A DNA stretch of 64,000 nt from Weizmannia acidilactici (GTDB lineage Bacteria > Bacillota > Bacilli > Bacillales > Bacillaceae_C): positions 124,001 through 188,000 of the forward strand of contig NZ_BKZP01000001.1 of the NCBI RefSeq assembly GCF_008974185.1, in the 5' to 3' direction. Position 1 is the first letter of the stretch. Every line of letters starts with the position of its first letter. Both the position numbers and the translations under genes were made by a program. The notes beneath the pieces are model-generated. The model saw only the letters and a program-made list of their open reading frames with translations. It was not told the origin of the DNA and ran no database searches. Shown piece by piece: positions 7,743 to 60,838 of the stretch.

Positions 7743-8036
7743 ATGGCGACACGTAAGAAAATTCCGATGAGAAAATGCGTTGCAACGGGAGAAATGAAAC
7801 CGAAAAAGGAAATGCTCCGTATTGTCCGTTCCAAAGAAGGGGAGATTTCAATCGACCCGACCGGGAAAAAATCCGGAAGAGGCGCCTATCTTTCAAAAGA
7901 TGAGGAAGCCGTGCTTTTGGCAAAGAAAAAAAATATTCTCGCAAGCCATCTCGGCGCTGCGATAGAAGATTCCTTTTACGATGAAATATTGGCGTTTATC
8001 CAAAAAGAAAAAAAGGAGAATAAACAAAAACTATGA
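7743..8036 (+). CDS. rnpM: YlxR/RnpM RNA-binding protein, RNase P modulator
   Basis: This is a small basic protein of the YlxR (DUF448) family, 97 residues. The family signature [10 protein letters not shown] is near the N-terminus and GRGAYLS is in the middle. The B. subtilis homologue has been renamed RnpM because it binds and modulates RNase P. The start is the ATG at 7743 behind GGAGTGAGG. The gene sits 12 bases after nusA and overlaps the next gene by 4 bases (ATGA), so translation is probably coupled. Confidence 0.93.
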
Positions 8037-8341
8037 ACGGAAACCGGGCGATGTCCTTTTTAGGCCTTGCCAACCGGGCAGGAAAAGCCGTTTCGGGAGA
8101 GGAGCTCGTTCTGAAAGAGGTTCGGTCGGGCCGGGCAAAGCTTGTATTATTGTCAAAAGATGCCTCATCCAACACGTCGAAAAAGGTTTTAGATAAATGC
8201 CGTTTCTACAATGTGCCTGTACATTTTGTTGAAACGAGAGAAACACTTGGGAAAGCCATCGGGAAAGAGGCAAGGGTTACAGTGGCGGTTTGCGACCGCG
8301 GTTTTGCGGAAAAACTTGCCGAACTGCTCGATGAATCATAG
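8033..8341 (+). CDS. rplGA: L7Ae-family ribosomal protein YlxQ
   Basis: This 102-residue protein of the L7Ae/L30e family is expected to bind kink-turns in RNA. The fold signature is visible: [16 protein letters not shown] at the start, then [15 protein letters not shown], then a hydrophobic segment ending in [12 protein letters not shown]. It overlaps rnpM by four bases and is followed by infB, the standard Bacillus order. Its exact ribosomal role is not settled in the family. Confidence 0.93.
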
Positions 8342-8355
8342 GTGGGGGTGACGAC

Positions 8356-10536
8356 ATGAGCAAAATACGTATTTACGAGTATGCGAAAGCTCATCATACT
8401 TCAAGCAAGGAAGTCATATCGAAATTAAAACAAATGAATATAGAGGTATCCAATCATATGTCGATGATCGATGGGGAAACTGTAAGTAAGCTGGATGCTT
8501 TCTACAGCGGAAAGAAGCAACATTCGGACGGGAAAAAACAAAACGTACAAAAAGCGCCTGCAAAACGTGAAAGGAATGAAAAAGCCGAGAAAGCACAGCC
8601 TGAAGGCCGCGAACACCATGAAAAGAGCGGAAAACAAAGGCAGAAAAACGGGAATCACGGAAACGGCAATATGAAAAAGCAAGCGCGTGAAAACAATGTG
8701 AAACCTTTCAACAAGCAAAAGAAAAACAAGAAAAATAAAAATGCCAAACAACAGCCACAGCCTGCCCAAAAGAAAAAGGAACTGCCTGAAAAAATTACGT
8801 TCACCGAATCGCTGACAGTGGCGGAACTGGCGAAAAAGCTGAACCGTGAGCCGTCCGAAATTATTAAAAAATTGTTCCTATTGGGCGTTGTGGCAACGAT
8901 CAACCAGCAGCTCGACAAAGACGCAATCGAGTTGATTGCCTCGGAATACGGCGTGAAAGTCGAAGAAGAAGTTGTCATCGACCAGACGGATTTGGAAACG
9001 TATTTTACGGAAGACCGTGAAGAAGACCTTGAAGTCCGCCCGCCGGTTGTCACCATTATGGGCCATGTCGACCATGGGAAAACAACGACACTTGATTCCA
9101 TCCGCCACACGAAGGTCACTGCAGGGGAAGCAGGCGGCATTACACAGCATATCGGTGCGTACCAGGTCAAAATTGATGGTAAAAAAATTACGTTTTTGGA
9201 TACGCCCGGTCATGAAGCATTTACGACGATGCGGGCGCGCGGGGCGCAGGTAACTGATATTACGGTTCTTGTCGTCGCGGCTGATGACGGCGTGAAGCCG
9301 CAGACTGTGGAAGCAATCAACCACGCAAAAGCAGCAGATGTGCCAATTATTGTTGCTGTCAATAAAATTGACAAACCGACGGCTAATCCGGAGCGGGTCA
9401 TGCAGGAATTGACAGAATACGGACTGATTCCGGAAGATTGGGGCGGCGATACGATTTATGTCCCGATTTCCGCTTTAACGGGGGAAGGAATCGATAACCT
9501 GCTTGAAATGATTTTACTTGTCAGCGAAGTGGAAGAACTGAAAGCCAACCCGAACCGGCGTGCGCTCGGCTCAGTCATTGAAGCGCGCCTTGATAAAGGC
9601 CGCGGCCCTGTTGCAACATTGCTCGTGCAAAATGGCACGCTGCATGTTGGCGATCCGATCGTTGTCGGCCATACTTACGGGCGTGTCCGCGCAATGGTCA
9701 ATGACCTCGGACGCCGTGTAAAAGAAGCCGGCCCGTCCACGCCGGTCGAAATCACCGGCTTGAATGATGTCCCTGAAGCGGGCGACCGTTTTGTCGTATT
9801 CGAAGACGAGAAAACCGCGCGCCAAATTGGGGAAGCCAGAAAACAGCAGGCTGTCCAGGCGCACCGCAACGAAACGGCCCGCATCAGCCTTGACACCTTG
9901 TTTGAACAAATGAAACAAGGGGAAATGAAAGAATTAAATGTCATCGTAAAAGCGGATGTGCAAGGTTCTGTTGAAGCGCTGACCGCAGCCCTGCAAAAAA
10001 TTGATGTGGAGGGCGTCAATATTAAAGTCATCCATACAGGGGTCGGTGCGATCACTGAATCCGATGTGGCGCTCGCCTCTGCGTCCAACGCGATTATTAT
10101 CGGGTTTAACGTCCGCCCGGATGCCAATGCAAAACGTGCGGCCGAAACGGAAAAAGTCGATATCCGCCTGCACCGCATCATTTATAAGGCGATCGAAGAA
10201 ATTGAATCGGCGATGAAAGGGATGCTCGATCCTGAATACGAAGAAAAAATCATCGGTCAGGTCGAAGTACGGCAGACGTTTAAAGTATCCAGAATCGGCA
10301 CAATTGCCGGCGGCTATGTAACCGACGGGAAAATTACCCGCGACAGCGGCGTCCGCGTCATCCGCGACGGCGTCGTCATTTACGAAGGCGAAATCGATAC
10401 GCTGAAACGGTTTAAAGATGATGTGAAAGAAGTCAATCAGGGGTACGAATGCGGCATCACCATTAAAAACTTTAATGACATCAAAGAAGGAGATGTCCTC
10501 GAGTCCTTTATCATGGAAGAAGTAGAAAGGGCATGA
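8356..10536 (+). CDS. infB: Translation initiation factor IF-2
   Basis: IF-2 is the GTPase that places initiator tRNA on the 30S subunit and promotes subunit joining. The 726-residue protein has an N-terminal IF2N domain and a K/Q/N-rich low-complexity linker (about 50-145). A second IF2N domain precedes the G domain ([10 protein letters not shown] near 235, [14 protein letters not shown]). Domains II to IV follow. The ribosome binding site GGTGGGGGTGA is purine-rich. The gene is mid-operon and overlaps ylxP by four bases. Confidence 0.98.
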
Positions 10537-50249: not shown

Positions 50250-51797
50250 ATGAACGAGAAACAGCGCTTAGAGCAGCAGCGAGTGAAATCAGTGGAGCCT
50301 GCGGACAAAAAATCCGAAAAGGACTACAGTAAATATTTCCAATCTGTCTATATCCCGCCAAATTTAAAAGAAGCGAGAAAACGAAGCAGGGCAGCAGTCC
50401 AATATTATAAAGATTTTCAAATCGACGAAGACTTGAAAGGCATGGGGGAAGGGTTAAAGTTTTATATCCGGACGTATGGCTGCCAAATGAACGAGCATGA
50501 TACGGAAGTCATGGCCGGCATTTTTATGCAGCTCGGTTATAAACCGACTGATATGGTTGAAGATGCTGATGTGATCCTTTTGAACACATGCGCAATCCGT
50601 GAAAATGCCGAAAATAAAGTATTCGGCGAAATCGGGCACTTGAAACATTTGAAAACGGAAAAACCCGATATGCTGATCGGTGTATGCGGCTGCATGTCAC
50701 AGGAAGAGTCCGTTGTCAATAAAATTTTACAGAAGCACCCGCATGTCGATATGATTTTCGGTACCCATAACATTCATCGCTTGCCGCAAATTTTAAAAGA
50801 AGCGTATATGTCGAAAGCAATGGTTGTGGAAGTGTGGTCCAAAGAAGGGGATGTCATCGAAAACCTGCCGAAAGTGCGCAAGGGCAATATCAAAGCATGG
50901 GTCAATATCATGTACGGTTGCGATAAATTCTGCACGTACTGCATCGTGCCGTATACGCGAGGCAAAGAACGTTCAAGGCGCCCGGAAGACATTATTCAGG
51001 AAGTGCGGGAACTGGCGGCGCAAGGCTATAAAGAGATCACTTTGCTCGGCCAAAACGTGAATGCGTACGGGAAAGATTTTGAAGACATCGAATACGGGCT
51101 CGGCGATTTGATGGACGATCTCCGGAAAATCGATATTCCGCGCATCCGCTTTACGACAAGCCATCCGCGCGACTTTGACGACCGCCTCATCGAAGTCTTG
51201 GCGAAAAAAGGAAATTTGATGGAACATATCCATCTCCCGGTCCAATCAGGTTCAAGCGAAATTTTGAAAATTATGGGCCGCAAATATACAAGGGAGCAAT
51301 ATTTGGAACTTGTCCGCAAAATCAAAGCTGCGATTCCTGACGTTTCATTATCAACCGATATTATTGTCGGCTTCCCGAATGAAACGGAAGAGCAGTTTGA
51401 AGAAACATTGTCGCTTTATAAAGAAGTCGGGTTTGAAACGGCCTATACTTTTATTTATTCCCCGCGTGAAGGCACGCCGGCAGCAAAAATGAAAGACAAC
51501 ATCCCGGTGGAAGTCAAAAAAGAACGGCTGCAGCGCCTGAACGAAGTGGTGAACGCATACTCTAAAGCCGCAATGGAAAAATACGAAGGCCAGACCGTTG
51601 AAGTGCTGGTTGAGGGCGAAAGTAAAAACAATCCGGATATTTTGGCCGGCTATACCCGCAAAAATAAACTGGTCAACTTCAAGGGGCCAAAATCGGCGAT
51701 TGGAAAATTGGTAAAGGTCAAAATTACAAAAGCCAAAACTTGGTCGCTGGACGGGGAAATGGTCGGTGCCGCCGATGCGGTCGGAGTGGAAGCGTGA
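50250..51797 (+). CDS. miaB: tRNA-2-methylthio-N6-dimethylallyladenosine synthase
   Basis: This radical-SAM enzyme methylthiolates i6A at position 37 of tRNAs to ms2i6A. In the 515-residue protein an N-terminal extension precedes the UPF0004 domain, with its three cluster cysteines ([26 protein letters not shown]). The radical SAM motif CDKFCTYC is near residue 224, and a TRAM domain lies at the C-terminus. All six ligand cysteines are present, so the gene looks functional. This matters because the miaA gene that makes its substrate is broken at 59.8-60.6 kb. Confidence 0.97.
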
Positions 51798-57699: not shown

Positions 57700-57728
57700 T
57701 TGACACATCGGATTAATATGCATATAAT
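57700..57728 (+). promoter_or_regulatory. Consensus sigma-A promoter of the SAM riboswitch transcript
   Basis: TTGACA (57700-57705) and TATAAT (57723-57728) both match the consensus perfectly, with a 17-base spacer. This is the best promoter in the window. Confidence 0.92.
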
Positions 57729-57754
57729 AAAACCAACATACATTTACATCGATT

Positions 57755-57857
57755 AACTTATCCAGAGAGGTGGAGGGATTGGCCCGATGAAACCTCAGCA
57801 ACCGGCCTGCACGGCACGGTGCTAATTCCAATAAGCCTGAGGCTTTGAAGATAAGTT
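57755..57857 (+). ncRNA. SAM-I riboswitch (S box) aptamer
   Basis: Perfect 8-bp P1 arms (AACTTATC 57755-57762, GATAAGTT 57850-57857) enclose the S-box core. AGAGAGGTGGAGGGA and CGATGAAACCTCAGCAACC are the conserved K-turn and SAM-pocket sequences. It starts about 20 bases after a consensus promoter and is followed by an intrinsic terminator, so SAM should switch transcription off. Known S-box genes are mostly for methionine and cysteine metabolism; here the only gene downstream is a 69-residue basic protein. Confidence 0.95.
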
Positions 57858-57879
57858 GAGGTGACATGCCCATTTGAAG

Positions 57880-57917
57880 AACCCCTCTTCTTATTTTTGA
57901 AGCGGGGTTTTATTTTT
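57880..57917 (+). terminator. Riboswitch-controlled terminator
   Basis: AACCCC(T)CTTC pairs with GAAG(C)GGGGTT (one mismatch) and is followed by TTATTTTT. It is the expression platform of the SAM riboswitch. Confidence 0.85.
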
Positions 57918-57937
57918 AAATAAAAGGAGCGATACAA

Positions 57938-58147
57938 ATGGGCAATATAAAAGACAGGGAATTGGCAGCTGAAAAAAGGAGGAATGAACTGATTGACCGG
58001 CTGATTGCCTTCCATATTTATAAAAAAGGAGGGAAGCACCTGTTTGAACTCACGCTTCACGAACTTGAACAGGAATACAGGCATATCCAATCGCAGGTGC
58101 ATCCCCACAGCGGCTGGGAATCGATCCATTGGAAACGGAAAAAATAA
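57938..58147 (+). CDS. Small basic protein, FbpA-like, under SAM riboswitch control
   Basis: A 69-residue, strongly basic protein with AAAGGAG upstream of its ATG. The core RRNELIDRLIAFHIYKKGGK, then HLFELTLHELEQEY, resembles the Fur-regulated basic protein A (FbpA) family of Bacillus. That family acts with the small RNA FsrA in iron-sparing control. The match is by eye and from memory. No Fur box is seen; instead the gene is the sole cistron after an S-box riboswitch, so it should be expressed when SAM is low. Confidence 0.75.
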   Translation: MGNIKDRELAAEKRRNELIDRLIAFHIYKKGGKHLFELTLHELEQEYRHIQSQVHPHSGWESIHWKRKK

Positions 58148-58177
58148 ACCGGAAAGGTCATTTTAAATCCTGTTCCC

Positions 58178-59062: not shown

Positions 59063-59683
59063 TTAATTGGGCGGTCTTGTGGAGGTTCCTTGAATGGCCT
59101 CGTGTATGCTCCTCACTTCTTTAAATAGCGCATGCCGGTCCACTTTTAAGCTTTCGATGATTTCTTGTGGATCATTCCCGCTGCGGTGCATCTTCATGAC
59201 TGTATCCAGATTTTTATGCCCCAGCTTGGCCAACGCCGATGCTAGAATAAGAAAGTGGCGGTCTTCTTCACGCCGAGCATATTTTTCAATATCTGCCCGG
59301 CTTCTTCCGTTATACTGGGCTAGATACCGGATGATGTTTTCTTTGTTTGCCGCATAAAAATGTTCTTTTGCCTCATGGTGTTCGGCCCGGATTTTTCCAA
59401 CGTCCACGCCGAAGTGTGTAGCGGTTTCTTTCCATGATTTGTGTTTTTTATAGTATTGCAGGACTGCCTCCATTTTTTTGCCGCTATGTTCGGCGATGAA
59501 GGCGGCATGGTAAACCTCTTTTTTGGTGTATCCCTCCTGCAACCATTTCTGCATATTTTGAACCGGCGCCATTTGGTGATGGGTGTAAGGCTTTCCGCCG
59601 TGCTGGGCGTATGCGGAAGGTACGGCAAAAAATGCCAATATCAAAATAGCGGTCAAGCCTGTCCATGTTTGTTTTCTATTCAT
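59063..59683 (-). CDS. Secreted protein with duplicated helical module, unknown function
   Basis: A 206-residue protein with a clear Sec signal peptide (NRKQ, hydrophobic stretch 8-22, cleavage after AYA at residue 26). The mature part is His-, Lys- and Glu-rich and contains two related modules, about residues 60-105 and 147-196. Each has the pattern of a small-residue helix, G-K-K/N-x-x-x-V, ten polar residues, then a hydrophobic-V-D turn (FGVDVGKI, LKVDRHAL). AAAGGAGGG lies 11 bases before the ATG. No lipobox or catalytic motif is seen. It stands alone between the small-gene cluster and the broken miaA, on the opposite strand from most of the window. Confidence 0.8.
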   Translation of the reverse strand: MNRKQTWTGLTAILILAFFAVPSAYAQHGGKPYTHHQMAPVQNMQKWLQEGYTKKEVYHAAFIAEHSGKKMEAVLQYYKKHKSWKETATHFGVDVGKIRAEHHEAKEHFYAANKENIIRYLAQYNGRSRADIEKYARREEDRHFLILASALAKLGHKNLDTVMKMHRSGNDPQEIIESLKVDRHALFKEVRSIHEAIQGTSTRPPN

Positions 59684-59810
59684 CTAAAAATACCCTCCTT
59701 TTTTTAATTTATGCCTGAATAGTTTTCCCTTTCCCCTGCTTTCTATGACCGCTGGAAGGAAATGAATAAAATTTATTCAGAAGGGGAAAATATATAAATG
59801 TTCTGTTTGA

Positions 59811-60583
59811 ATGCTTTATGGTAGGATAAAGAAAGGGATGTTCCCTTTTCGGTTGCCGAGTTTCAGCAATTGGTGCGGGGAAAAATTTATCGAAATTGCA
59901 TCCCGGGGCAAATTGCCCATGATTGTCGGCGGCACTGGGCTTTACATACAATCGGTTTTATATGATTATCGTTTTTCGGACATTTCCGGCGACGCTAAAT
60001 ACCGCAGGGAGCTGGAATTACTGGCGGAGCGGGAAGGGGCCGGGGTGCTCTACAAGATGCTGGAAGAACTCGATCCGGAAACCGCCGGCAAGATCCATCC
60101 GCACAATGTAAGAAGAGTGATCTGGGCGCTGGAAATATACCATTTTTCCGGCAAAATGATGCATGAATACCGCAAGGAGCAAAAAGAGGAGATGTTGTAT
60201 GATGCCGCTTTGGTCGGCCTCACACTGGAAAGGGAAAAATTGTACGCGCGCATTAATCAACGGGTCGATAAAATGATTGAACAGGGATTAATAGCCGAAG
60301 TGGAAAAATTGCTGGCCAACATTTGCGCGGTGCCCAGTCAATCCAGGCGATCGGCTACAAAGAGCTGTATGATTATTTTGATGGGCTCATAACCCTTGAT
60401 GAGGCGATAGCCCGGTTAAAACAAAATACGCGGCGTTTTGCTAAAAGGCAGCTTACCTGGTTCCGCAACAAAATGGAGATTGAATGGTTTGATATAACAA
60501 ACGAGGCCGAAAAGAAAAAAAAGTTTGAAGAAATTTCCGCTTTTATAGCAGGAAAGCTACAAATAAAATCGAATAGTTTATAA
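59811..60583 (+). pseudogene. miaA: Decayed tRNA dimethylallyltransferase gene (miaA)
   Basis: Fragments of MiaA are readable in three pieces. First comes DVPFSVAEFQQLVRGKI (from 59837, with a stop codon just before it). Next, after a probable one-base insertion in the A5T3 run near 59884, comes EIASRGKLPMIVGGTGLYIQS through VEKLLAN. Last, after a probable one-base deletion near 60320, come [18 protein letters not shown] and KQLT-type [15 protein letters not shown]. The first 65 or so residues, including the P-loop GPTAVGKT and the substrate site, are missing: the 110 bases upstream hold nothing similar. Two indels could be sequencing slips, but the missing 5' end could not. It keeps the normal place before hfq. 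Confidence 0.9.
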
Positions 60584-60610: not shown

Positions 60611-60838
60611 ATGAACAAGGCCATCAATATTCAGGACCAGTATTTGAATCAATTGCGGAAAGACGGTACCGTTGTTACGGTCTTTTTGATGAATGGGTTC
60701 CAGCTTCGTGGCCAGGTAAAAGGATTTGATAATTTTACGGTTCTGATTGAGACGGACGGCAAGCAGCAGCTTGTTTTTAAACACGCCATTTCTACGTTCC
60801 AGCCGCAAAAAAATGTTCAGATCAATTTTGAAGAATAA
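60611..60838 (+). CDS. hfq: RNA chaperone Hfq
   Basis: Hfq forms a hexameric Sm ring that binds small RNAs and mRNAs. In the 75-residue protein the Sm1 region [22 protein letters not shown] and the Sm2 motif FKHAISTF (the Bacillus form of YKHAI) are intact. GAGGAGGAGG precedes the ATG. It follows the miaA remnant as in the normal miaA-hfq order. Confidence 0.97.

Follow-up and report, generated by a model that had tools for sequence, protein, structure and literature searches.

The window analysed here, a stretch of 64,000 nucleotides from Weizmannia acidilactici, raises the question of how a cell would use MiaB, which converts i6A37 to ms2i6A37, when the gene for MiaA, the maker of i6A37, is broken. 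An earlier note on this DNA had described such a pair and left three ways out: a second miaA elsewhere in the genome, another substrate for MiaB, or a cell that lacks ms2i6A37 and in which miaB is starting to decay. The features of the window that bear on the question are the following.

50250–51797, + strand: miaB, intact, putative user of the MiaA product (TIGR01574, 706.4 bits, cut-off 355.3)
59830–59846, + strand: deletion junction between retained upstream DNA (59762–59830) and the miaA remnant (BLASTN breakpoints against the genomes G001 and G003)
59846–60583, + strand: remnant of the native miaA, with 72 N-terminal codons lost and two frameshifts; stop codon at 60581–60583
59884–59886, + strand: first frameshift (+1), approximate position (three-way DNA alignment)
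60312–60320, + strand: second frameshift (-1), approximate position, near 60312 (three-way DNA alignment)
60611–60838, + strand: hfq, intact, directly 3' of the miaA remnant (from the sequence, start confirmed)

Three frame pieces together encode the broken MiaA of the window, and BLASTN and the three-way alignment agree with the earlier view of a multi-lesion pseudogene that has lost its N-terminus and P-loop and carries two frameshifts. DNA homology to the congeners ends at 59830 (G001) or 59832 (G003, taken to be Heyndrickxia coagulans 36D1) and restarts at 59836 or 59846, for a net loss of about 310 bp relative to G001 and about 262 bp relative to G003; the start codon and the 72 codons with the P-loop lie within the deleted part. 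The loss of the P-loop had thus been recognised correctly, with its size put at about 65 residues instead of 72 codons, and both frameshifts are seen in the alignment, at 59884–59886 instead of 59884 and near 60312 instead of 60320. The start of miaA cannot be placed at 59811, as had been proposed, because homology to MiaA begins only at about 59846; the 193-aa ORF at 59811–60392 starts 5' of the homology, and the residues it encodes before that point are not MiaA. Matches to this ORF in the profile search begin only at position 35 of PF01715 and position 68 of TIGR00174, and therefore the P-loop is absent from the remnant. The ORF still scores 155.2 on TIGR00174, above the cut-off of 148.65, so that the score alone would mislead: the remnant has neither a P-loop nor an uninterrupted frame, which is broken twice.

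What is left of the gene is little eroded. The remnant is 79% identical to the MiaA of G003 over 238 columns, has changed one of the 64 near-invariant columns that it covers (R to W), and shows a dN/dS of 0.11 against G001 and 0.18 against G003, next to 0.11 for the intact pair G001–G003 (dS against G004, Heyndrickxia ginsengihumi, is saturated, hence no ratio is given for that genome). The dN/dS values, near that of the intact pair, and the single altered near-invariant column suggest that the decay of the native miaA is recent compared with the species splits.

The gene order in this part of the window is miaB, mutS, mutL, miaA remnant and hfq, where the names mutS and mutL rest on the translations. 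MiaB of the window belongs to TIGR01574, has the UPF0004, radical-SAM and TRAM domains of Pfam and matches the solved MiaB structure 7mjz. It contains seven cysteines, of which those at 78, 114, 148, 224, 228 and 231 lie within the expected motifs and presumably act as the ligands. The description of miaB as intact with its six motif cysteines was therefore right, and we found no lesion in its profile match, domains or cysteines. In relatives, hfq follows miaA directly in 80 of 80 loci, its start 39–105 bases past the miaA match.

The assembly that holds the window comprises 3,189,962 bases in 123 contigs (completeness 100, contamination 0.07), and a profile search of these contigs for another IPP transferase brought to light a second gene, here called miaA2.

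Contig C11, 79796–80740 (positions 7797–8741 of the extracted locus L007), - strand: miaA2, intact, 314 codons, GTG start

By its sequence this gene is a MiaA. It scores 386.5 bits on TIGR00174 (cut-off 148.65) over profile positions 1–287 of 288, has the P-loop GPTAVGKT at residue 12, and keeps 92 of the 93 columns in which 97% or more of 106 references agree, the sole near-invariant change being D to N at 113. Residues 4–312 match the solved MiaA structure 2qgn (E 4.7e-122), and by sequence comparison miaA2 shows no notable difference from 2qgn, 3d3q and 2zm5, which all belong to the TIGR00174 family. Since an intact miaA resides on C11, MiaB need not be without a substrate, and a genome without MiaA is ruled out. 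Of the three ways out, the second miaA is thus the one that was borne out; another substrate for MiaB is no longer needed, and a loss of ms2i6A37 with incipient decay of miaB has lost its premise, the more so as miaB carries no lesion.

The closest relatives of miaA2 are found outside the genus. We surveyed 397 genomes of the order, out of at least 398 and drawn evenly from a larger group, and the best matches outside its own genome were in G044, which we take as Bacillus smithii DSM 4216 (96%), and G089 (95%), followed at a distance by matches of 69%; the four congeners are 63–69% identical to miaA2. A separate scan of named genomes gave at best 70% among the 80 best loci listed, the donor not being among those. 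In the taxonomy used, G044 and G089 belong to another family. According to the part of PMC4995803 available to us, 16S places B. coagulans closest to B. smithii, and the family label may thus overstate how far apart the two lineages are. Both genomes carry the miaA2-like gene as their sole miaA with hfq directly after it, and close to this pair a counterpart, at 77% identity, of the AAA gene found after hfq in G001. The resemblance extends beyond the coding sequence, as DNA identity of 89–90% starts nine or ten bases past the miaA2 stop and covers 1.5 kb in G089 and 1.1 kb in G044, the match to G089 resuming at L007:10681–10962. At the level of synonymous sites miaA2 lies nearer to G089 (dS 0.11) than G044 does (0.34). 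The second miaA therefore probably came from a relative of B. smithii. In G044 the gene, with 96% amino-acid and about 90% DNA identity to miaA2 over 1.1 kb, is the only miaA and stands before hfq, whereas miaA2 has no adjoining hfq and abuts a transposase remnant. The same part of PMC4995803 gives cheese, compost, hot spring soil and a sugar beet factory as sources of B. smithii isolates, and a habitat shared by the donor lineage and the present strain is plausible.

For the phylogenetic trees, 7 loci were set aside (the copies of the window, a second record of the C11 locus and long stretches); a match was obtained in 123 loci, and 107 distinct proteins were kept. Together with the remnant, entered in all trees as 242 residues with the frameshift residues omitted, these gave the 108 rows of a quick tree. 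An earlier tree, which lacked the donor genomes, drew on 47 of these 108 rows, and the final tree of 39 rows combined 37 of the 108 with the G044 and G089 proteins. In the final tree miaA2 joins G044 and G089 at 100/100, and constraining it to the genus or to the remnant is rejected (p 4e-6 and p 1e-40, respectively). The remnant itself is placed among the sequences of the genus (99/98), where G003/G002 form its sister group (98/89). Within the donor group miaA2 nests with G089 (99/83 for protein, 95/94 for DNA), but the AU test retains a G044+G089 clade that leaves miaA2 outside (p 0.113), so that the direction of transfer rests mainly on gene order, GC content and insertion site. These three favour transfer from the donor lineage to this genome.

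The insertion site can be located closely. Positions 1–6460 of L007, on C11, carry genes in the order known from G003, while similarity to G001 extends to 6792. From 7203 to about 7800 a transposase remnant (PF13701) abuts the 3' end of miaA2; it consists of both ends of an element present in G003, which we take to be IS1380, with the middle missing. Beyond miaA2 come pieces of a lipid-kinase gene (DAGK_cat, YegS_C) and then the end of the contig, so that the insert measures at least about 4.1 kb (L007:6793–10962). Its donor-like part has a GC content of 0.40, lower than the 0.49 of the native DNA next to it and the 0.47 of the window. Apart from miaA2 the insert contains no ORF that reaches 120 aa, the remainder being decayed, and a search for hfq on C11 found none. 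In G003 the far flank of the site corresponds to contig C9 from position 51 onward, and only 15 bp separate the edges there; the insert sits between genes that are adjacent to each other in H. coagulans. We infer from this that C11 and C9 join, and a search for an overlap between their ends returned chance matches only (best E 0.28). Contamination as the source of C11 was ruled out by its native genes, syntenic with G003 and G001 up to the positions given above. A search for a plasmid source gave matches in 3 of 72,556 plasmid records, at 65–66% identity over 5–21% of the query and in the miaA part only. Annotated miaA genes occur in three records filed as plasmids (NZ_CP089998.1, NZ_CP083716.1 and NZ_CP013205.1; 101–807 kb; Cytobacillus, Bacillus and Paenibacillus), which may be genuine plasmids that carry an additional miaA or may be replicons of a chromosome-like kind. 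On C11 an acyl-CoA-ligase-like gene (L007:3188–4892, + strand) is split into several frames where G003 has a single 537-aa ORF (L160:13382–14995), possibly another recent pseudogene or a sequencing error.

Taken together, we consider it very probable that the native miaA has undergone xenologous displacement, in which a copy from the B. smithii lineage replaced the native gene, now decayed. An ancestor of the strain, within the Heyndrickxia coagulans group, would have gained B. smithii-lineage DNA carrying that lineage's miaA; with two copies present the native gene would have become redundant, and a deletion, accompanied by two frameshifts, would then have removed its start and P-loop. The foreign MiaA would now make i6A37, taking over the function of the native enzyme, and the intact MiaB would convert it to ms2i6A37. 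Judging by the position of the transposase remnant alone, a transposon may have had a role in the import. Import followed by redundancy and native loss is the simplest account, and the gain of miaA2 presumably preceded the loss of the native copy. In E. coli, miaA deletion mutants are viable. The same holds in P. aeruginosa, according to the accessible part of PMC9754610, and for this reason the reverse order, which needs a period without i6A, is possible. As in other cases of xenologous gene displacement, there is an intact foreign homologue grouping outside its own genus, a broken native copy that stays in the genus clade, one function and an identifiable donor lineage; what differs is that the foreign copy lies at another locus and that the native gene can still be read as a remnant, which means that the event has been caught part-way.

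Displacement presumes that miaA2 is expressed and active; the rival to be weighed against it is a cell without i6A37, with a silent or inactive miaA2 and a miaB that is a relic or has another role. No promoter-like site stands out near miaA2 (3 found, 9.3 expected, none above chance), while around the remnant there are 6 against 2.5 expected, scattered on both strands; scanning for terminators was of no further help. The accessible part of PMC9754610 also describes a role of MiaB independent of MiaA in P. aeruginosa, and by that token an intact miaB alone would be no proof of ms2i6A37, the intact miaA2 being the stronger argument. This gene arrived with its own upstream DNA and retains nearly all of its near-invariant columns as the one substantial frame in an otherwise decayed insert; with miaB intact as well, we regard a cell lacking i6A37 as very unlikely. 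Amino-acid identities of 95–96% to G044 and G089 at a dS of 0.11–0.38 show purifying selection, most of which may be older than the transfer.

It could also be supposed that part of the damage to the remnant, such as the two single-base frameshifts, stems from sequencing or assembly errors in what is a draft of many contigs, and the hardly eroded coding sequence, with a dN/dS against G001 equal to that of intact copies, would fit such a view. The N-terminal loss, however, has sharp edges, with homologous DNA to its left and right, and lies inside a contig of 203 kb, and one near-invariant residue has changed too, making error a highly improbable explanation. We see almost no chance that miaA2 is an old paralogue of the native gene or a duplicate that arose within the genus. 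In the tree without G044 and G089 the AU test still allowed miaA2 a place among its congeners (p 0.331), although its pairing with the remnant was rejected (p 0.0026); once these genomes are included the genus grouping fails and within-genus paralogy is ruled out, each of the four congeners has one miaA, and the match to the donor covers DNA outside the gene.

A single miaA match is present in 4 of 4 congeners and in 33 of 33 other genomes of the family. Across the 397 genomes of the order, more than one match was seen, among the matches listed, only in this genome, G136, G243 and G411. G243 and G411 have one TIGR00174 match each and G136 has two overlapping pieces of one locus, which leaves this genome as the only one with both a broken and an intact miaA among those matches. 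The G136 pieces (C107:77325–78180; L190, L191), one with an internal stop, are the only miaA matches of that genome and may represent a lone miaA that is broken, or else an error, the contamination value of G136 being 6.

Viewed at genome scale, the apparent paradox of a MiaB without its substrate-maker disappears, a warning that the loss of a tRNA modification should not be inferred from one locus. Xenologous displacement is a known and ordinary process, and this is a new and unusually clear case: a core gene of tRNA modification was displaced recently enough for the remnant, the probable donor lineage and the insertion site all to be visible. The literature titles and abstracts listed contained nothing on point about a miaA pseudogene beside miaB or the displacement of a tRNA-modification gene, which at that level of source is no proof of absence. 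The displacement also separates miaA from hfq. We give little credence to the idea that it was non-neutral, either because splitting the miaA–hfq unit altered hfq expression or because selection in a hot niche common to both lineages favoured the MiaA of the thermotolerant one; were it true, nature would have set up in this strain an experiment on what keeps miaA next to hfq.

The stretch between mutL and the miaA remnant has features of its own. At 57755–57857 on the + strand lies an S-box SAM riboswitch (Rfam RF00162, 91.6 bits), and downstream of it, at 57938–58147 on the same strand, a short ORF whose product resembles the Fur-regulated FbpA (PF13076). It is odd to find a sensor of SAM coupled with a small protein linked to iron; the stretch 57722–58149 is 76% identical in G001. 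Further on, at 59063–59683 on the strand opposite to mutL and miaA, is a gene for a 206-aa protein with a signal-like N-terminus, whose sole Pfam match is a sub-threshold one to HTH_28 and to which a similar ORF of 221 aa in H. ginsengihumi (L009:548–1213) corresponds in position.
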